DNA from: Pyrenophora tritici-repentis
Taxonomy: Eukaryota > Ascomycota > Dothideomycetes > Pleosporales > Pleosporaceae
Direction of reading: 5' to 3'
Assembly (NCBI RefSeq): GCF_003171515.1
Contig: NC_089391.1
Span: forward strand, 1,488,001 to 1,552,000
DNA length: 64,000 bases
A program made the translations under genes and the position numbers. The notes beneath the pieces were generated by a model. That model was not told the DNA's origin. It searched no databases and worked only from the letters and a program-made list of their open reading frames with translations. This document shows, one piece after another, positions 1,695-20,982 of this stretch; positions within the stretch are counted from its first letter, which is position 1; every line of letters starts with the position of its first letter.

Positions 1695-1710
1695 AAAAAA
1701 GGCAAAAAAA
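1695..1710 (-). terminator. Pol III oligo-T terminator of tRNA-Pro
   Basis: On the minus strand, T7 (1710-1704) and T6 (1700-1695) follow the tRNA 3' end by 12 nt and more. This is the expected Pol III termination signal and suggests the locus is or was transcribed as a tRNA. Confidence 0.75.
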
Positions 1711-1741
1711 GAAAGTAATAGCGGGCTCAACCGGGATTTGA

Positions 1742-1792
1742 CTAACACATGTTAGAGGTTGATATACTGGAGATTCGAACGCTGGGACTTAC
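1742..1792 (-). other. mRNA-type intron inside the tRNA-Pro T loop
   Basis: This 51-nt insertion lies between T54 and T55. It starts GTAAGT (1792-1787), has CTCTAAC with the branch A at 1752, and ends TTAG at 1742. Removing it gives a perfect T arm, CCGGG-TTCAAAT-CCCGG. It interrupts the native B-box promoter but carries a B-box-like sequence of its own. Confidence 0.8.
1770..1781 (-). promoter_or_regulatory. B-box-like element inside the T-loop intron
   Basis: The minus strand reads CGTTCGAATCTC, close to the Pol III B-box consensus GGTTCGANTCC. The gene's own B box is split by the intron that contains this copy. Whether TFIIIC uses it is inference. Confidence 0.5.
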
Positions 1793-1809
1793 ACCCGGGA
1801 CCTCCTGCA

Positions 1810-1827
1810 CTCGTGTTTTCTGAATAA
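1810..1827 (-). other. Canonical tRNA intron of tRNA-Pro
   Basis: These 18 nt lie between G37 and T38, the standard position for eukaryotic tRNA introns cut by the tRNA splicing endonuclease. A CAGA run within it can pair with TTTG of the anticodon loop once the larger insertion is gone. UGG proline tRNAs are known to carry introns here in other fungi. Confidence 0.75.
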
Positions 1828-1830
1828 CCC

Positions 1831-1888
1831 CTAATAATTTGTTAGAATTGATTGCTGTCTTGGTATGGAACCAATGTTGCAAACTTAC
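1831..1888 (-). other. mRNA-type intron inside the tRNA-Pro anticodon
   Basis: This 58-nt insertion sits between anticodon bases T34 and G35. It starts GTAAGT (1888-1883), has a TTCTAAC branch-site match with the branch A at 1842, and ends ATTAG at 1831. Its removal restores loop TTTGGGT next to the 18-nt tRNA intron. Length, donor, branch site and acceptor match introns of protein genes in this window. Removal by the spliceosome is inferred. Confidence 0.8.
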
Positions 1889-2409
1889 AAAGCAGGAATC
1901 ATACGACTAGACCATTGAGCCGGTTATATTGTTTGATGACTAATCTTCGGGTTAGAAATAATATGTAGATGGGGGCAAAGTGGGTAGAAGCACTTGTATC
2001 TGAGGTGCTGATGTTGGATATACGGTGTGCGCTGGAAGCGAGACGCGTGCAGGTGGAGAGGTGTGGAGAATGGCGGGGAGACGTGCGGCGGTGACTCAAC
2101 AGTTTTGAGGGTAAGATCGGGATAGCTCGTATTTATCATTTGGATCACGAGCATTGGTATGTTATGAAGACAGCTATCATATTGCGATTCAATGATTTCT
2201 GAATTATTCATTCGTGTATCAAGGTCTATGAGTGTACTTCCGCTTCTCCAAAGCCTGACCCGTGAGCTCAGCGACGGCGGCTATGCGATTGCACGCTGAG
2301 CCTCACTTGAAGCTGGTTACTCGCTTGCTATTCGCTTTTGATGACGGAACCAAGGAAAAATGCACGTAGGGGCGTGGGTCATAGCCATGCCCACCTGTTC
2401 TTCATTGCA

Positions 2410-4066: not shown

Positions 4067-5416
4067 ATGGACGCCGCGCTGGCCTCGTACCACGCGCGTC
4101 TCGCGACTTTTGAGGGAGCAGCCACGACTGGCAAGGGCAGACGAACCAGCAGCAGATCAAAAAAGGCAGGCACAAAGTCAAAAGCTGCTTGGCCATTACA
4201 TGCGCCCTCGGCCCAGGACCTGGCCTACGCCGGGTTTGTGTGGAAGCCAACAAGCGCCAGTCCAGACAATGTCCAATGCTTCAGCTGCGAATGCCAGCTC
4301 GATGGCTGGGAGGAGGAGGACATACCTGCATTCGAGCATCTTACGCATTCACCAAGCTGTGGCTTTGCTGCTATCGCTTGCATTCGTCTGCGCACAGGCG
4401 ACCCAGGCAGGACGGAAGATGACCCTACATCAGACTCAATGGTGGCTGCGCGCCGGTCAACATTCGCCGACATGTGGCCTCTCGACCCTTCTGCCGGCTA
4501 CCCTACCGTAGACCAGATGGTGGCTGCGGGATGGTTTTACGATCCCTCAACAGACACACCCGACGGGGTGACCTGCCCCTATTGCGCCTTGGCTCTGGAT
4601 GCATGGGATATTGGCGACGACCCTATGCAAGAGCACCGTCGCCGCTCACCCGAATGTCTCTTCTTCACCCTATCTAACATCTACAACAAGCCAGTGCCAG
4701 TACCAAAGAAGGGAAAGCGGGCATCCACAAAGAAGCGTGCATCAGCACGTTCTTCAACCGCGTCGACCGCGAGTAGGAAGGGCACCCGTGGCAGAAAACG
4801 AACAAGCGATGCTATGGAAGAGACTACCATGGAGTACTCCTCAGTCACTCAATCTGAGATGATGCAGTCTGAGATTACACAGCCAGAAACCACTCAGCCA
4901 CCACCCAAACGACTTCGATCTTCCAGTATTGAAAGCTTTCCCAGTGACCTTCCCGTCGGGACACCTAAGAAGACGCCGACAGGATTGCGGGAAACTCGTG
5001 CATCGAGCATGGACATGTCAAGTCTACCTGCAGATCTACCAGTTGGAACACCTAAGAGGACGCCACCTATGATGAGCGAAGCAGACGAGCCTCGCGAGAC
5101 TCTGGCCTGGAAGCCAGCAGACATTGATGCCCTCTTCTCTTCTCACGAGGAAACTCATGGCTTTATGAACGACATCCTCATCGACTCCGGCCTGGACAAC
5201 ATCGAGGTCGCCGGTCTAACACCTGAACGCCTTTATGAACTAGTCTCGGCAGGTCTTACGGATCACGAGAAGGGAATGACTATCGAGCAGTGGGTCCTAT
5301 ATAACGCAAAGAGGGGCGAAGAGAAGCTCCGGATGGCCTGTGAACAGCAAATCCTTGCGTTCGAGGCAGAAGGACGACGAGCCATGGCCGTCTTGGAAGG
5401 GATCCCCACGCTTTGA
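4067..5416 (+). CDS. bir1: BIR-domain protein, Bir1/survivin-like
   Basis: A single-exon protein of 449 residues with two BIR zinc-binding domains. The first has Cys71, Cys74, His91 and Cys98 (C-x2-C-x16-H-x6-C). The second, about residues 131-195, contains TCPYCALALDAW followed by EHRRRSPEC. Fungal Bir1/Pbh1 is the survivin-like subunit of the chromosomal passenger complex with Aurora kinase and INCENP, acting at inner centromeres and the spindle midzone. The middle is basic and Ser/Thr-rich, with a duplicated motif DLPVGTPK (twice, near 4950 and 5035) holding possible CDK sites. The C-terminal block from about 5110 looks conserved. It is much shorter than the yeast proteins (over 900 residues). 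Confidence 0.9.
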   Translation: MDAALASYHARLATFEGAATTGKGRRTSSRSKKAGTKSKAAWPLHAPSAQDLAYAGFVWKPTSASPDNVQCFSCECQLDGWEEEDIPAFEHLTHSPSCGFAAIACIRLRTGDPGRTEDDPTSDSMVAARRSTFADMWPLDPSAGYPTVDQMVAAGWFYDPSTDTPDGVTCPYCALALDAWDIGDDPMQEHRRRSPECLFFTLSNIYNKPVPVPKKGKRASTKKRASARSSTASTASRKGTRGRKRTSDAMEETTMEYSSVTQSEMMQSEITQPETTQPPPKRLRSSSIESFPSDLPVGTPKKTPTGLRETRASSMDMSSLPADLPVGTPKRTPPMMSEADEPRETLAWKPADIDALFSSHEETHGFMNDILIDSGLDNIEVAGLTPERLYELVSAGLTDHEKGMTIEQWVLYNAKRGEEKLRMACEQQILAFEAEGRRAMAVLEGIPTL

Positions 5417-7763: not shown

Positions 7764-10700
7764 ATGCCGCGGCGGCAATTCCAGGCCGACTTGCAGAAGG
7801 CTGCGGAGACCATATCGATAGCGGGAATCTCAGATGTGCGCCCAGGCGGCGACGACGGCGAATTTACCTTCATGTGCATGGCAGACGGCCAGAAGCTGCA
7901 GATTTCTGCCCTTATACCCGGTAGGATCATGTCCCAAACCGTGTCTGAAGCGCGAGCGGCCTCTTGATGATTCCAAAGGCTTCGCAGCAAGATATACTAA
8001 CTGAATACAGATGTCTCCGACTATCCTTCTAGTCACACCTGCATGATCTTTGGAGCCGACAACACCTCCGCCAGCGTCGCTGCAGCCCTGAACGATATTA
8101 CCATCAACGCGCAAACTGTTCCTGAGATCCTTGAGCTGGTTTCCATCCGCCTCAAGTCGACCGACGATGACGGTGACCGCCAAATGCTTGATTCTCAAGA
8201 GTTCGACGAGTTCGACGACGAGGATGAAGACGAATATTTCCCTGGGGACGAGGAGTTGCTACCGTCAAAGCCTCGGATCGCAGACTATGCAGCAGTACCC
8301 GGTGAGGGCTCTACAGAAGCTACAGCTGCATTCCGTAAGCGCGTCCGGAATGATCTCTCAACTGCGAAGAGCCAAGGTTTCAAGGTGGGCCATCTCGGTG
8401 GTTTAATGAGCGGCCAAGCATGCTATGTCTCTCTTGCGGTCCGCATTAGCAAGCTCGGCATCTCAGAAGAAGCTATGCAAGCATGGCAGGTGGAGCCGTC
8501 AGAGTACCTCGTAGCTATCCTCCAATACCCGTCAGGGTATAGAGATATGGACGAAGTGAGGTCATATGATGCTCGTCAAGCTCGCCGAAGTCTCGGTATC
8601 CGTGTCGGCATATGTACCACATACAAACCAACCATCTCTGAAGCCGTAGCAGCATTCTCCGTCCTCAGCCACGAAGACGCGAAGCGACAAGAATCTCAAT
8701 CGTTCGAACCACAGAGCGCATTCACAACGTTACCTACAGGCTTTCGAAACTCTTTCATCTCTAGGGCCCTGAACGAGTTGTTAGACCAGCGCTTTCACAT
8801 GCTCCTCAAATACCGATACGGAGGTATGCCATGGCAGGGTGCTGAAATGTTTTACAACGATCAGGTCCTGAAAGCATCACATACGGATAAAGATGCTTCG
8901 CACGACAAGTACTACGCGGAAGAGAAGATCTGCAACGCGTGGCCCAAAATCGTCACAGACGACCACATCATTTCTTCATTCAGCGGACAGCATTCTCTGC
9001 CTCTAGTCGCCATGCAATTTGTGCTCCGACACTTTGTGAGGTGCACAGAGTTTTGCCTAATCTGCTTCAGCAAGATGCCTGATGACTTACAGGCCATCAA
9101 GCCTTATGTCTGCGACAACCCTCTGTGTCTGTACCAGTACATGTCACTAGGATTCGGCCCGAGTATTGAACATGAAATACTTTCTCAACCCAAAGTCGTC
9201 GACTTGCTCATCAGCTTCTGCTACATGAGTGCGCGCGGTGGCGCGCTCAAAGACTTTCCTACTGGTCTTAGCCTAGCAGTACCACCTCCAGTAACTTTCG
9301 AGAAGGACTATGGGCCGATTACTGCAAGCTATGCTGCAACAATCGTGCCTGAACAAACGCGAATCGCGACTGTAGCTACGCCCGCGAAAAGCACGCGATA
9401 CAATGCAGTCACACGCGAGATGTTGTTTGATGATCACACGCGGGCGTGTCCTGTCTCAAAAGGTCACTGGGTCGTTATTCGTATGATGGATAACTATCAG
9501 AAAGCTCTGCATTGTCGTGTTGTAGATGCATCGTACTATCCGGCAGTCAAGCTATCTAATCCGATCAGTCCACTGCTGGAAACATATGAGGATGAATCAC
9601 ACATATCGCGCACTGATCGACAGCAGGCCGCACAACCGCAAAAGCAGATGCCAGTTCCGCCTCCCTTGAACGAGTTCCGGCCCGCAACCTACCACCTTTA
9701 CGATCACAACTTCGACGACCTCCAGGATTACGACAAGTCGCAGGCTATACTGGGTCTGTTGGACTTGTTACCCCCTATACAGGAGATGAGGGAGTATCTC
9801 ATGCGGAAACACCAGTCTACGCTTAGCGCATGGGTTGATCGCCTTTCTCCGGCTGCCGTTGGGATACTGCGTTGGGTCATTGCCTCGAATCGAGCTTGTA
9901 TCCTACAGGTTGATGACGGAGACCCTGCAAACGGTCGAAAATCTGAAGAGAGGCTATACGGTATGAGCGGTTGGGCACAGTTCCGTTTTGCAATGGGTGC
10001 TCCCGACAAGGAACGCCGATTCATTCAAGCGGTGCAACAAACTACTAGCAGACTTGGCCTACAGTATCCCACTCTATTTGCATGGCACGGGAGTCCCCTT
10101 AAGAACTGGCATAGTATTATTCGAGAGGGCCTTCATTTCAACCAAACTCTCCACGGTCGAGCCTTCGGCCATGGGGTCTATCATTCCCAAGAAGTTCAGA
10201 CAAGCCTCGGGTATTCCGGCGGAAATAGTGGATATAATATTGTCTCCGGTTGCTGGCCGAGAAGTGAGCTAAAAGTTCAACAGGCTTTGGCCCTGAACGA
10301 GATTGTCAATGCAACATCGGAGTATGTCAGCCATTCGCCACATCTAGTGGTAGCTCAGTTAGATTGGATTCAGACTCGTTACCTCTTTGTGAGGACCCGA
10401 GAAGGCAACTGCAATTTTGCTACTGCAACTGGAGCTGCAACTGGAAACGCAGCAGGAGCCAGCAGACAGGACAGTAGGCCGCTCGCTTGTGTAGACCAGG
10501 ATCCGAACCATACTCCTCGCGGCGTCGATGGTCCACTCATTATTCCAATCCATGCCATTGCCGCCTCTCGTCGGCCAAAGGCAAAAGCTACTGGGGTGAG
10601 CGATCCACAGGGAACTCTGGAGGCCTGGCTAAACATTCCGCAGAAGCATAAACGCCAGAAAGCTTCGGGCAAAAGCAAGTATGACCCCATCGAGATTGAC

Positions 10701-11558
10701 GACGACGACGAAACTGCGAGCGTTGCTACCCTTGAGGAGGATCGTGCCATTTTCGAAGAGAACGAAGAAGACCAGTTTCAACAGACCACCGGCTTCCTCC
10801 CCACACCGAATTCACTGCCCGGGGACAAGGGAAAGTCGAAAATGGGTTCCCTATCGTCATTGTCGTCCAAGCTCTTTGGAAAATCCTCGTCCTCAAAGCC
10901 GCTTACCGATTATGTCCCCGGTACCCTAGACTATAGTACCCTACCCATGCTACAGATGCCTGCATGGGCTACCTCGGCTGCTACCAGACGTTTGATGAAG
11001 GACTTCAAAGATCTCATCCAGATCCAGAACAAAGAACCACTTCATGAATTGGGCTGGCACATTGATGAAGACAGGGTTGAGAACATTTACCAGTGGATCG
11101 TGGAACTCCATTCTTTCGAAGCTAGTCTCCCCCTTGCACAAGACATGAAGAAGCACGGCGTCAAGAGCATCGTACTGGAACTGCGCTTCGGTAAGGATTA
11201 TCCTATGAGCCCGCCGTTTGTTCGCGTTATCCGGCCTCGTTTCCTCGGATTTGCCCAGGGTGGAGGTGGTCACGTCACTGCCGGTGGTGCCATGTGCATG
11301 GAACTCTTGACGAATGATGGCTGGAGTGCTGTATCTTCGATCGAGTCGGTTCTTCTGCAGGTCCGCATGGCTATTTCTAGTCGCGATCCAAAGCCCGCGC
11401 GCCTGCAGTCAGGGTCCATGGCAAACTACGGCGTTGGTGAAGCGGTGGACGCGTACATGCGTGCTTGTGCAATACACGGGTGGACTGTACCCGCCGGCTT
11501 TAGAGAGATGGCATATGGAGGAGCGGAGAGCGCAAGTGGCGTTCAGGGCCCTGTCTAA
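7764..11558 (+). CDS. PARP-like ADP-ribosyltransferase fused to a UBE2Q-like E2 domain
   Basis: Exons 7764-7920 and 8011-11558; the 90-bp intron has branch site ACTAAC. The join restores LIPDVSDYPSSHTC in frame, giving 1234 residues. The N terminus looks RWD-like. A PARP catalytic fold spans about 10070-10390: FAWHGS (His), GHGVYHS (Tyr), and YLFVR where classical PARPs have the catalytic Glu. An E2 fold lies at the C terminus (about 10960-11400), with the predicted active Cys in AMCMELLTNDGWS as in UBE2Q enzymes. The linker is acidic and Ser-rich. PARP/E2 fusions are known in filamentous fungi but their role is unclear. Lack of the Glu suggests mono-ADP-ribosylation, as in PARP6/8/16. Confidence 0.9.
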
Positions 11559-16599: not shown

Positions 16600-19500
16600 A
16601 TGGAAGAGTTGGAAATTGCTGAAGCAGACAAGCATACTAAGATCCGCGTCAACATTGAAAAAAGAGACAAGTACCTAGAAGATGAAGCCACTGCAATCGA
16701 TCTCTTGTTTCGGTCGCTTACTGAAGATGACCAAGCCCTTATTGACGAATACGACACTGCCTTCCAGTTCTGGGCCTACCTACAAAAGAAGTACACCCAA
16801 ACTGACGCCACAACCGCCAACATTTACATGACCAGAATTCAAACGTTCACATTCAATCCTGGGAACACAATTGTTGGATCATGGGAAAAGCTAAAGGAAT
16901 ACCGACGCAAACTCGTAGCAGCAGACGCTGACACCAACGGAGCTTACAAGGACTCTGCACTACTACTCGTTCTTATTAGATCACTCCCGAAAGAATTTAA
17001 GACTACGATTGACACCTTAAACGCCCAACTTAACCTTACGGTTGAACAGAAACTTAAGTTTCTGGAAGAGAAGGAGGTTCGAGACCAGCAAGACGCCGAC
17101 GAAAAAGCTCTCCCAGCATTCCGGAAGACGGAGAAGTATGTTCCGCCTTACAAGCGCCGAAATCACAAGAGCTCACCACTATCGTCTGACTCCGAATCTG
17201 GTACTAAGTTTATGGTCCAATGCTTCCTTTGTGACGGAGCCCATGGCGTACGAGACTGTCCAAGACGTGAGAGAGCTCGAAAGCTCCTTAAGGAATACGA
17301 CGCTAAGAAATCATCTAAGCCGCCTATTAAGACACTCAAGCAAAGGAATTCTCACAAAAAGACTGGCAAAGCATATGGAGCCGAAGAAGTCAATTCAGAG
17401 TCAGATGAATTATCCGAGACCTCAGACTCTGAACCCGAGGAAATTGAGACATGCCGTCTCTCAAAAGACATTGTCGGTAAGGCCTCTCCATCTACTTGGG
17501 CTGCCGACACTGGCGCCTCCTCCCACATGTCTGACCAACCCTCATTGTTTAGACGAATGATCAAGATCAAGCGAAGACTAGTTCGGGTTGGAGGGGGAGA
17601 ATTATATGCAGACTGGAAAGGAGAAGCTCAAGTGGTGTGTAAAGACGGATCGTCGACATGGTTGTCAGAAGTACTGCTTGTACCTAACCTTGGAGTCAAT
17701 TTGTTATCAGGGAGAAGAATTTGCGCAGCAGGCCTGAAGGGTCGTTTCAATTCACACGTACTATGCTTCAAACTAGGAAAGGAGATCATTATTAAAGCAA
17801 CTATGGACGACGGCCTCTACGTAGTGTCACACATTGCCGATGGATACCACGAGACAGCATTCCTAGGCACGGAACCCCATACACCAGTTAAGAGCGAGCT
17901 TAAGGTTAATGAAAAGGAGAGATACCTGCTGTATCACAGACGTTTCGCACACCTAGGACCTACAAAGATTGCCAAACTCCACGAAGTTACAACTCTCCAG
18001 AAGAAGATTCAAGTTCCAGAGAAGATTGAAATCTGCGAAGTGTGTTCCCTGACAAAGATGAAGAACAGCATCCCTAAGCAGCTAAGAGAGCACAAGGCCA
18101 CGAAGCTAGCCTTAGTACAGTTTGACATTGCTGGACCCTTTCCAACATCTCTACGAGGAAACAGGTGGTTCCTCCAAATTATTGATAGCTACACGCGGAA
18201 AAACTGGGTTATCCCGCTGAAGAAAAAGGGAGACGCACAACGGGAACTCCGAATCTGGAAGACCTTTGTAGAACATCAAACTGGCGAGAAAGTCAAAGCT
18301 GCTGGAACCGACAATGCACCAGAACTTCTACAGCAAGCTGAGGAATGGAGAGTTACACAAGGCGTGGAAATTCAGCCTACAACAATTGCTTCCTCACACC
18401 AGAATGGACCAGCCGAGCGAAACATCCAAACTGCTGAAGCTGATATGAGAGCAATGTTGAAAGACGCTGGTTTACCAATTGAGTTTTGGGATGAAGCTGT
18501 CGAAGCAGACGCATACCTACGCAACCGTACAAACACAGGACCTATGATCAATGGAAAGCAAGTCAGTCCTGAAGAGGCATTCACAGGAACGAAACCATCC
18601 ATTGACCACATCCGTGTATGGGGGAGCAAATGCTATTCGTACATCAACCCTAAAACGATTCCAGCAGACCAACGACATGACAAGCTCGTGGACCGTGGCA
18701 GAATTGGAGTATTTATGGGATATTCTGAGACAACAAATAAGCAGTTCAAGTTCTATTCGCCAGAGCTTGGATACACCTCAAGGACAAGCCGATTGTCAGT
18801 GGACGAATACACCCCTGGAGGGAAAGTTGAACTACGACTGCGAAACATACCAGCTGGACCACAAGGAACGCAGAATACGATGCCAGACCGAAAACCAAGA
18901 GGAAGACCTAGGAAGGATCTAGAATTATCTCCTGCCGAACGAATGGAACCAACTCCTACCGAACGAATGGAACCATCTCCTGCAGAACCAATGGAACCAT
19001 CTCCTACCGAACCAATGGAACCATCTCCTGCAGAACCAATAGAACCAGTTTCCGAGAACCTAATGGAACCATCTTCGGCAGAGCTAACTCATGAACCAGT
19101 GAAGCGTCACAGAGGAAGACCAAGGAGGCTAACTACTATTCCTCCTACTGCACCATCTGATGAGCGGGTTCCTAATCTTGTGAACGAAGAGGGGCACGAA
19201 GAACCGTGTACCCAGTCTGTACGAGAAAAGGAGATTCCACGATACTTCACTAGACAAGCCAAACGGAAGAGGTCTAACGAAGAGATTGTTGAGGACGAGA
19301 GATTTAGCAAGATCGTTAAAGCTATGCTAGCCCAAGTTGGCCTTACAGAAGAGCAAACACGACTATCTGAGAAGGCTTTCGCAGCAACCGAGATCGCAGG
19401 AATCCAGATCCCCCAGACACACGAGCAAGCTATCAACGACCCAAAGTATGGAAAGCAATGGAAAGCAGCAATACTTGAAGAGATAATCGCGTTAATAGAG

Positions 19501-20982
19501 AATCGAACCTGGGAGGAAGTTCCAAAGCCAAAAGACGCGAACATGGTTGATTCAAAGTGGGTTTTTACAGTCAAAACGAATCTCGACGGGACTGTTGAGA
19601 GGTTTAAGGCACGCCTTGTGGCAAGAGGTTTTACGCAAGCACACGGAACAGACTACAACGAGACTTTTGCCCCGACAGTCCGCATGGACACCTTACGTCT
19701 GTTTATGGCCACTGTCGCAGCGGAAAACCTGGAATGTTTCCACTTTGACATTAAGAATGCATTCACAGAGTCGCACTTGAAGGAAGAGATCTTTCTTAAG
19801 CAACCCCAAGGAGTAGAAGTCAAAAAAGGATACGTCCTTAGAGTTCTCCGCAGCTTATACGGACTCAAACAGGCTGCTCGCGACTGGAACTTGTTGATAA
19901 AGAAAGAACTTCTGGCATGGGGATTCGTACAAAGCCTCGCAGACCCGTGCATGTTTATCCACAAAGAAAAACAACTCCGTATCCTCGTCTACGTTGATGA
20001 CATTGCTGCTGCTGCAAAAGATCGAGCTCAAATTGATTGGTTCTACGAGAAGCTTTCTGGAAGATTCAACACCAAGAACCTGGGGGAGATTCATAAGATC
20101 CTTGGAGTACGAGTTACGCGAGACAGAAAGCGCCGCACAATCTACCTCGATCAAGAACAGTACCTACACGCAGTACTTGACAAGTTTGGAATGTCTAGCA
20201 AACAACACAGAGACAAGAAGATTCCATCTGCAGATTACACTTCATTTAGGCCAGCCACTGACAACGACACCCGAATCGACATCACTGAATACCAGCAAGT
20301 GATAGGGAGCCTTATGTTTGCTATGGTTCTTACACGTCCAGACATTGCATTCACCCTCGGAAAGCTAAGCCAATACATGAGCGATCCAGCAGAACACCAT
20401 GGCCATGCGTTGAAGAACCTGCTACGATATCTAAGGTCGACAGTGACATTGAAGCTACGCTACGGACCAGGGGGAGTACACTCGCAATTTGTCATCTACT
20501 CTGATGCTGACTGGGCAAGCGACATGGTAGACCGAAAGAGCGTTTCAGGGAGCACTGCAATGTTCTACGGAGGTCCAATATCATGGTCTAGCAAGAAGCA
20601 ACGGTCTGTTGCAACGTCAAGCTGCGAATCTGAATACATCGCACTATCAACATGCTGCAAGCAAGGCCAGTGGATTGCTCAAATGTTTAGAGATCTTGGG
20701 TTCCCAAAGTACATTGGAAAAGACACCAACAAGGTCCAGATGCTAGGAGACAACCAGGGTGCCATTGCACTTACAAAGAACCCTCACCTTCACGAAAGAT
20801 CAAAGCACATCGACGTCTGTTATCATTTTATCCGAGACCTAGCAGAACAAGGCAAACTCGATGTGGCCTACGTTCCAACTGCAGACATGGTGGCTGATGG
20901 AATGACAAAGCCATTGCAGCGAGTCGCATTCGAGAGATTCAAGAACCAATTAGGAGTTGTCCTTGGACCGGACCTGCCCTGA
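16600..20982 (+). CDS. Copia Gag-Pol polyprotein
   Basis: Open for 1460 codons from the first in-frame Met; the true gag start is upstream in another frame. Domains in order: gag capsid-like region (about 1-150); CCHC knuckle (Cys208-x2-Cys-x3-His-x4-Cys); aspartic protease DTGAS (about 303); integrase zinc region (about 445-490); integrase catalytic Asp, Asp, Glu near residues 508, 570 and 605; a Pro/Glu repeat linker (MEPSPAEP units, 18936-19080); RVT_2 reverse transcriptase with YVDD near residue 1131; RNase H from DADWASD (about 1303) to the end. It encodes all functions for reverse transcription and integration. No stop codon or RIP-type nonsense change interrupts it. The stop codon abuts the polypurine tract. 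Confidence 0.96.
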   Translation: MEELEIAEADKHTKIRVNIEKRDKYLEDEATAIDLLFRSLTEDDQALIDEYDTAFQFWAYLQKKYTQTDATTANIYMTRIQTFTFNPGNTIVGSWEKLKEYRRKLVAADADTNGAYKDSALLLVLIRSLPKEFKTTIDTLNAQLNLTVEQKLKFLEEKEVRDQQDADEKALPAFRKTEKYVPPYKRRNHKSSPLSSDSESGTKFMVQCFLCDGAHGVRDCPRRERARKLLKEYDAKKSSKPPIKTLKQRNSHKKTGKAYGAEEVNSESDELSETSDSEPEEIETCRLSKDIVGKASPSTWAADTGASSHMSDQPSLFRRMIKIKRRLVRVGGGELYADWKGEAQVVCKDGSSTWLSEVLLVPNLGVNLLSGRRICAAGLKGRFNSHVLCFKLGKEIIIKATMDDGLYVVSHIADGYHETAFLGTEPHTPVKSELKVNEKERYLLYHRRFAHLGPTKIAKLHEVTTLQKKIQVPEKIEICEVCSLTKMKNSIPKQLREHKATKLALVQFDIAGPFPTSLRGNRWFLQIIDSYTRKNWVIPLKKKGDAQRELRIWKTFVEHQTGEKVKAAGTDNAPELLQQAEEWRVTQGVEIQPTTIASSHQNGPAERNIQTAEADMRAMLKDAGLPIEFWDEAVEADAYLRNRTNTGPMINGKQVSPEEAFTGTKPSIDHIRVWGSKCYSYINPKTIPADQRHDKLVDRGRIGVFMGYSETTNKQFKFYSPELGYTSRTSRLSVDEYTPGGKVELRLRNIPAGPQGTQNTMPDRKPRGRPRKDLELSPAERMEPTPTERMEPSPAEPMEPSPTEPMEPSPAEPIEPVSENLMEPSSAELTHEPVKRHRGRPRRLTTIPPTAPSDERVPNLVNEEGHEEPCTQSVREKEIPRYFTRQAKRKRSNEEIVEDERFSKIVKAMLAQVGLTEEQTRLSEKAFAATEIAGIQIPQTHEQAINDPKYGKQWKAAILEEIIALIENRTWEEVPKPKDANMVDSKWVFTVKTNLDGTVERFKARLVARGFTQAHGTDYNETFAPTVRMDTLRLFMATVAAENLECFHFDIKNAFTESHLKEEIFLKQPQGVEVKKGYVLRVLRSLYGLKQAARDWNLLIKKELLAWGFVQSLADPCMFIHKEKQLRILVYVDDIAAAAKDRAQIDWFYEKLSGRFNTKNLGEIHKILGVRVTRDRKRRTIYLDQEQYLHAVLDKFGMSSKQHRDKKIPSADYTSFRPATDNDTRIDITEYQQVIGSLMFAMVLTRPDIAFTLGKLSQYMSDPAEHHGHALKNLLRYLRSTVTLKLRYGPGGVHSQFVIYSDADWASDMVDRKSVSGSTAMFYGGPISWSSKKQRSVATSSCESEYIALSTCCKQGQWIAQMFRDLGFPKYIGKDTNKVQMLGDNQGAIALTKNPHLHERSKHIDVCYHFIRDLAEQGKLDVAYVPTADMVADGMTKPLQRVAFERFKNQLGVVLGPDLP

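Follow-up and report, generated by a model that had tools for sequence, protein, structure and literature searches.

Textbooks assign mRNA introns to the spliceosome and tRNA introns to an endonuclease and a ligase. The canonical introns of nuclear tRNA genes lie at 37/38 (sites are written as the two tRNA positions they separate) and are cut by the Sen endonuclease; at the other positions described below, nuclear tRNA genes are not normally interrupted. Many of the interrupted genes reported here also carry a canonical intron, but their additional introns differ from it in position, length, ends and branch motif, and none of 26 canonical introns had GT..AG ends, even with the borders allowed a shift of ±1. 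Spliceosomal introns are known from other small RNA genes. In the accounts consulted, the U6 snRNA genes of Schizosaccharomyces pombe and other fungi likewise encode a Pol III small RNA interrupted by such an intron, whereas the host here is a tRNA, with many genes and about 12 sites, and a second, unrelated splicing system would be needed wherever a gene also has a canonical intron; no intron is present in the best U6 copy of this genome. Fungal U3 snoRNA introns, in the portions of the literature consulted, are almost all GT-AG and lie in a small structured RNA, in Dothideomycetes among others, but the host is not a tRNA and the introns are nearly always in one 5' stem-loop. According to the sections consulted of a study on introns in fungal U3, no small structured RNAs other than U3 and U6 are known to carry an intron often (PMC5832005). 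The closest likeness in position comes from the tRNA introns of archaea, Cyanidioschyzon and nucleomorphs, which also occur in the D, anticodon and T arms and several to a gene (PMC4090602, as far as consulted). In the same portions of that review, insertions in the D or T arm of eukaryotic tRNA genes are mostly supposed to mark pseudogenes, the nucleomorphs and the red alga excepted, and its main text, as consulted, is without the string 'spliceosom' (PMC4090602). Among the open-licence PMC matches listed, a scope that leaves aside preprints and subscription papers, there was no earlier report of spliceosomal introns in nuclear tRNA genes, and the phrase 'spliceosomal introns in tRNA' is absent from the open-licence PMC literature. 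What would be new, then, is the presence of such introns, probably functional ones, in nuclear tRNA genes; their presence in other small RNA genes was already known. We put at roughly 0.9 the probability that at least 21 tRNA genes of the genome described here carry U2-type spliceosomal introns that are removed before the tRNA endonuclease acts.

The window analysed is a stretch of 64,000 nucleotides from Pyrenophora tritici-repentis (C2:1488001-1552000, in a genome of 40,899,269 bases in 41 contigs). It contains a tRNA-Pro(UGG) gene whose three exons measure 33, 38 and 18 nt, with the canonical intron inside the middle one (Table 1). The sequence-only reading had proposed that this gene is split by two mRNA-type introns, each GTAAGT..CTAAC..TTAG with the branch point 10-11 nt from the acceptor. 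Re-reading of the sequence confirmed the anatomy and the anticodon, and the distance from the branch A to the 3' end is 11 nt in intron 1 and 10 nt in intron 2. Its statement that every stem is paired once the introns are removed is correct for the acceptor (7 of 7), anticodon (5 of 5) and T (5 of 5) stems but not for the D stem, which is paired at 3 of 4 positions, a T-T at 13-22 being the sole unpaired position. Run on the whole window, ARAGORN missed the gene, and Rfam at its gathering score gave no entry within the window. Removal of the two inserts, which the same reading had put forward as a check, leads ARAGORN to call a tRNA, although the printed anticodon is wrong because the canonical intron is placed 3 nt off.

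Table 1. Features of the interrupted tRNA-Pro(UGG) gene in the window, and its sister gene
Feature	Position	Strand	Details
tRNA-Pro(UGG) gene	1723-1921	minus	two GT-AG introns (58 and 51 nt) and an 18-nt canonical tRNA intron
Exon 1	1889..1921	minus	33 nt; acceptor 5' strand, D arm, anticodon stem 5' strand, U32-U34
mRNA-type intron 1	1831..1888	minus	58 nt; anticodon, 34/35; GTAAGT, TCTAAC, TAG; site shared with the sister gene L033
Exon 2a	1828..1830	minus	G35 G36 G37
Canonical tRNA intron	1810..1827	minus	18 nt; 37/38; ARAGORN places an 18-nt intron there, 3 nt off
Exon 2b	1793..1809	minus	position 38, anticodon stem 3' strand, variable loop, T stem 5' strand, T54
mRNA-type intron 2	1742..1792	minus	51 nt; T loop, 54/55; GTAAGT, TCTAAC, TAG
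Exon 3	1724..1741	minus	remaining T loop and the 3' strands of T stem and acceptor; the discriminator, a C, is at 1723
T7 run, candidate Pol III terminator	1704..1710	minus	
Second tRNA-Pro(UGG) gene, L033	G000:C2:1481863-1482064	as window gene	about 8 kb away

The second tRNA-Pro(UGG) gene has introns at both of the sites used in the window gene, with diverged intron sequences and a longer canonical intron. Compared over the 71 mature positions, the pair agree at 62, and six of the nine differences form three compensated acceptor pairs, the two strands of which flank both introns on opposite sides. Position 18 is a C in the window copy and a G in its sister. Over the spliced sequence, canonical intron included, the identity is 67%, a low value because the canonical introns differ in length, and the two mRNA-type introns are 59% and 54% identical, a weak contrast when measured in this way. 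Uninterrupted tRNA-Pro(UGG) genes, one of three findings that the sequence-only reading had said would together refute it, were not found either by a search with the 5' half (all 20 matches read) or by one with the T arm (all 15 read). The proline genes found comprise two UGG and one CGG gene, all interrupted, and three AGG genes, which have no introns other than ordinary ones. Since an AGG (inosine) anticodon cannot read CCG, decoding of CCG would rest on interrupted genes.

Interrupted genes are not confined to proline. Of 64 nuclear tRNA genes read in the genome, an incomplete set, 21 carry 23 mRNA-type introns; with the window gene and a Gly(CCC) gene found by splice-site pattern only left out, 19 of 62 are interrupted. 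The total is made up of 42 genes, one more and the 21 interrupted ones, in a catalogue that is non-random and in which several amino acids were not reached. A pattern for GT..AG within a split T loop matched five places in 40.9 Mb, all of them tRNA genes (the window gene, the second Pro(UGG), a Leu(UAG) and two Leu(AAG)), against one place for the reversed pattern. A wider splice-site pattern added the Gly(CCC) gene, though its control was poor (25 places against 8 reversed) and the rest of its places held no tRNA by ARAGORN or, for L083, by eye. Searches blind to splice sites, made with a B box and T-run or with 5' halves, added Pro(CGG), Gln(CUG), Glu(CUC), Glu(UUC), two Ala(AGC), three His, Leu(UAA), Lys(CUU), two Ala(CGC), Leu(CAA) and Asp, and all of these additions bear one kind of insert, GT-AG. 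Matches against reversed controls were 46 against 2 and 115 against 40 for the B box and T-run searches (genes of the second read from among the matches listed), 20 against 4 for the 5' halves, 4 against 0 for the His 5' half, 15 against 1 for the T arm, and 11 against 1 and 4 against 6 for the Leu searches. The 46-, 25- and 115-match searches count some places repeatedly, and the 25- and 115-match searches and the 4-match Leu search are uninformative by count and inform only through the genes read.

Places that were not tRNA were dropped (L038, L042, L067, L069-L072, L081-L086, L091, L095, L101-L104, L109, L126, L130, L131, L133-L140), as were tRNA-like repeats (L040, L059, L062, L066, L141, L142), a truncated gene (L127) and mitochondrial matches. 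A tRNA-like sequence with a long insertion and an unreadable anticodon arm, in which no clear GT-AG intron was seen by eye (L057, G000:C3:2073381), is counted among the 43 other genes and excluded from the 26 canonical introns. After splicing, ARAGORN calls all 21 genes as tRNA, whereas unspliced it returns nothing for 14, a wrong identity for five and the right identity for two. With 19 of 21 missed or misread in this way, it is likely that common tRNA finders give a false picture of the tRNA genes in such fungi. In a BLAST search with the spliced tRNA, exon 1 of the window gene was all that matched; the sister gene was overlooked, so the method is too insensitive for copy counting.

All 23 introns begin with GT and end with AG; their length is 51-68 nt, and each has a CTAAY motif 10-18 nt from the 3' end. 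The 5' sites are GTAAGT, GTACGT, GTATGT, GTGAGT, GTAAGC, GTAAGA and GTTCGT. The introns fall in the D, anticodon and T arms, at 8/9, 10/11, 11/12, 13/14, 15/16, 20/21, 30/31, 34/35, 52/53, 53/54, 54/55 and 58/59, and none of the 23 is at 37/38; these sites, about 12, were numbered by hand, and some borders have up to four equivalent placements. For 17 of the introns the borders are set by the tRNA rather than by a splice-site pattern, and all 17 are GT..AG, for which the chance with uniform bases is about 6e-37 by a crude calculation allowing 1-4 equivalent placements. The sequence-only reading had also noted that the lengths in the window gene match those of mRNA introns. This is less firm, as the coding-intron candidates of the window (eight rows, seven independent), for which the search itself demanded the signals and which have no confirmation by homology, are 43-59 nt long with the branch 8-13 nt from the end, seven of the eight rows spanning 43-47 nt, and are shorter than the tRNA introns. 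Introner-like elements of Dothideomycetes represent recent spliceosomal intron gain in the class. These have many near-identical copies, whereas the tRNA introns form no family outside paralogues; among the 23 introns 3 non-paralogous of 253 pairs scored above all 60 shuffles, which is about what chance would give.

Excision of such ectopic introns by the tRNA splicing endonuclease through a bulge-helix-bulge (BHB) motif, as in archaea, red algae and nucleomorphs, has a parallel in the tRNA-Pro(UGG) of Pyrobaculum islandicum, which has two non-canonical introns and one canonical intron (PMC4090602, as far as consulted). The archaeal introns, however, need BHB-like motifs according to the portions consulted of that source (PMC4090602), and here spliceosomal signals take their place: at strict register a 4-bp inner helix is formed by none of the 23 introns, the best reaching three of four pairs. 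A T at intron position 2 together with a pyrimidine before the AG makes the first inner pair impossible in 22 of 23. A branch motif in all 23 would also be unexpected under an endonuclease mechanism. The introns of the Guillardia nucleomorph are 3-24 nt long in the same portions of the review (PMC4090602), in contrast to 51-68 nt here. Rejected on the strict register only, this mechanism seems to us extremely improbable.

Removal by the spliceosome would have to be combined with transcription by Pol III. A T-run lies downstream of all 21 genes within the 50 nt or less viewed, the first run having at least five T in 20 genes and four in one, and after splicing the B box matches at 9 of 9 positions in every gene, which together make Pol III the likely polymerase. 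Before splicing, the best B box is 6-8 of 9 in the 11 genes with introns at 53/54, 54/55 or 58/59. By site, the unspliced B box stays at 9 of 9 with an intron at 52/53, falls to 8 at 53/54 and to 7-8 at 58/59, and is broken at 54/55. Intron 2 of the window gene cuts the B box in this way and contains a B-box-like CGTTCGAATCT with a 7 of 9 match. We do not claim that the intron restores the B box: three of the six 54/55 introns reach 7 of 9, and 26, 10 and 35 of 300 shuffles equal that. The 54/55 introns break the B box at the level of DNA, and transcription could weaken as a result; upstream elements or B-like stretches within introns may substitute for it.

The genome sequence itself shows the anatomy of the genes, the splice signals, the recurrence and positions of the introns, the conserved exons and, for several isoacceptors, a lack of uninterrupted copies in the searches made; from it we infer Pol III transcription, spliceosomal removal, the order of the steps and repeated intron gain. 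In the proposed pathway, Pol III would transcribe the interrupted gene as far as the T-run, and the GT-AG intron or introns would be excised first, by the spliceosome in the nucleus. As a split T arm or anticodon prevents the precursor from folding, this removal should precede the other steps; the tRNA would fold only afterwards, whereupon its ends would be trimmed and the tRNA splicing endonuclease and ligase would take out the 37/38 intron. A pathway of this kind would point to very short Pol III transcripts as possible substrates of the spliceosome.

The counts of copies bear on whether the interrupted genes are in use. Three of three tRNA-His genes found are interrupted, all at 58/59. An uninterrupted tRNA-His gene was not found with the 5' half (up to 3 mismatches), for which the sole other match is not tRNA, nor was an uninterrupted T arm of the His type (up to 1 mismatch) among the 15 matches, which comprise 13 tRNA genes already read, a new Asp gene (L132) and one place that is not tRNA (L133). 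For leucine, the one Leu-UAA gene, the one complete Leu-UAG gene and the one Leu-CAA gene (L120) are interrupted, and the Leu searches (11 and 4 matches, all read) gave no uninterrupted Leu-CAA gene. A truncated tRNA-Leu(UAG) 5' half is also present, a relic (L127, G000:C1:1869341). Among genes met without a dedicated copy search, two of two Ala-CGC and one of one Gly-CCC are interrupted. All found copies are therefore interrupted for eight isoacceptors, six of them with a dedicated copy search, although the results on uninterrupted copies rest on patterns with limited mismatches. For seven others uninterrupted copies were found as well (Leu-AAG two of four, Ala-AGC two of four, Lys-CUU four of five, Asp four of five, and Glu-CUC, Glu-UUC and Gln-CUG one of two each).

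In most sets of paralogues the exons are near-identical and the splice signals are kept, while the intron bodies have diverged. With the canonical intron included, identities of spliced sequence against intron are 100% against 67% for Ala-AGC, 94.5% against 23% for Ala-CGC, 97% against 52% for Leu-AAG and 88-91% against 53-78% for His. Such a pattern is not what would be expected if the genes were decayed copies, that is, tRNA pseudogenes that are never processed and have received random or intron-derived insertions. That explanation would be in keeping with the uninterrupted copies of seven isoacceptors, with C18 in the window copy, and with the portions consulted of the tRNA-intron review, according to which a eukaryotic tRNA gene with an insertion in its D or T arm is mostly one of many synonymous genes and a supposed pseudogene (PMC4090602). 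However, every tRNA-His gene found and both CCG-reading tRNAs are interrupted, the exons are conserved or compensated while the introns diverge yet keep GT, CTAAY and AG, and the truncated Leu-UAG half has the appearance of a real relic. With all copies found of His, Pro-UGG, Pro-CGG, Leu-UAA and Leu-UAG interrupted, decay cannot explain the set; the eight fully interrupted isoacceptors and their conserved exons led us to reject pseudogenes as a general account, which we regard as very unlikely, although individual genes among the seven other isoacceptors could still be idle.

The Leu-AAG genes, two with an intron and two without, have nearly the same exons and a common 3' flank, which points to a recent and precise gain or loss of the intron. 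They would also suit an intermediate case, in which the introns are real and recent spliceosomal introns that are poorly removed, little tRNA is made and the cell relies on the uninterrupted copies, and the splitting of the B box by the 54/55 introns would agree with it. It fails, however, for tRNA-His and for the CCG-reading tRNA-Pro unless uninterrupted copies were missed, and we consider it unlikely. It would seem likely that the spliceosome is here an essential tRNA processor, on which all His, UUA and CCG decoding depends, that several precursors need the endonuclease as well, and that tRNA genes have repeatedly gained spliceosomal introns, in about 12 places or more. If true, mRNA splicing would be joined directly to translation, with tRNA precursors in need of both systems. 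As tRNA function fixes the exon borders exactly, these genes also offer a clean setting for studying intron gain.

Several other features were noticed. A CATCAATCA-like motif is present a short distance upstream of many tRNA genes. Downstream of an intronless U6 gene (L105, G000:C2:1204100-1204800) come a B-box-like GAGTTCGAATC and another T-run, an arrangement like that of an extragenic B box, and an inverted partial U6 copy lies about 280 bases further along. Nineteen dispersed tRNA-family matches have equal length and an equal score of 46.1 bits; two of them (L141 and L142) have a tRNA-Arg(UCU)-like head and a common AT-rich tail and are without a terminator, and this repeat is probably a tRNA-derived SINE. 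A second repeat (L040, L059, L062, L066) has a B box (GGTTCGATTCCCAACA) and upstream sequence common to all four; it gave no BLAST match to L141 or L142, and the 46.1-bit family is distinct from it. Within the window, a Copia-type retrotransposon occupies 16600-20982 (+) as a single open reading frame, and the tRNA-His(atg) called by ARAGORN at 18681-18770, inside this frame, is most likely false. The window also encodes a protein with two BIR stretches (4067-5416, +), a protein with matches to PARP catalytic and ubiquitin-conjugating domains (8043-11558, +) and an oligopeptide transporter with 97% identity to its Pyrenophora teres counterpart.
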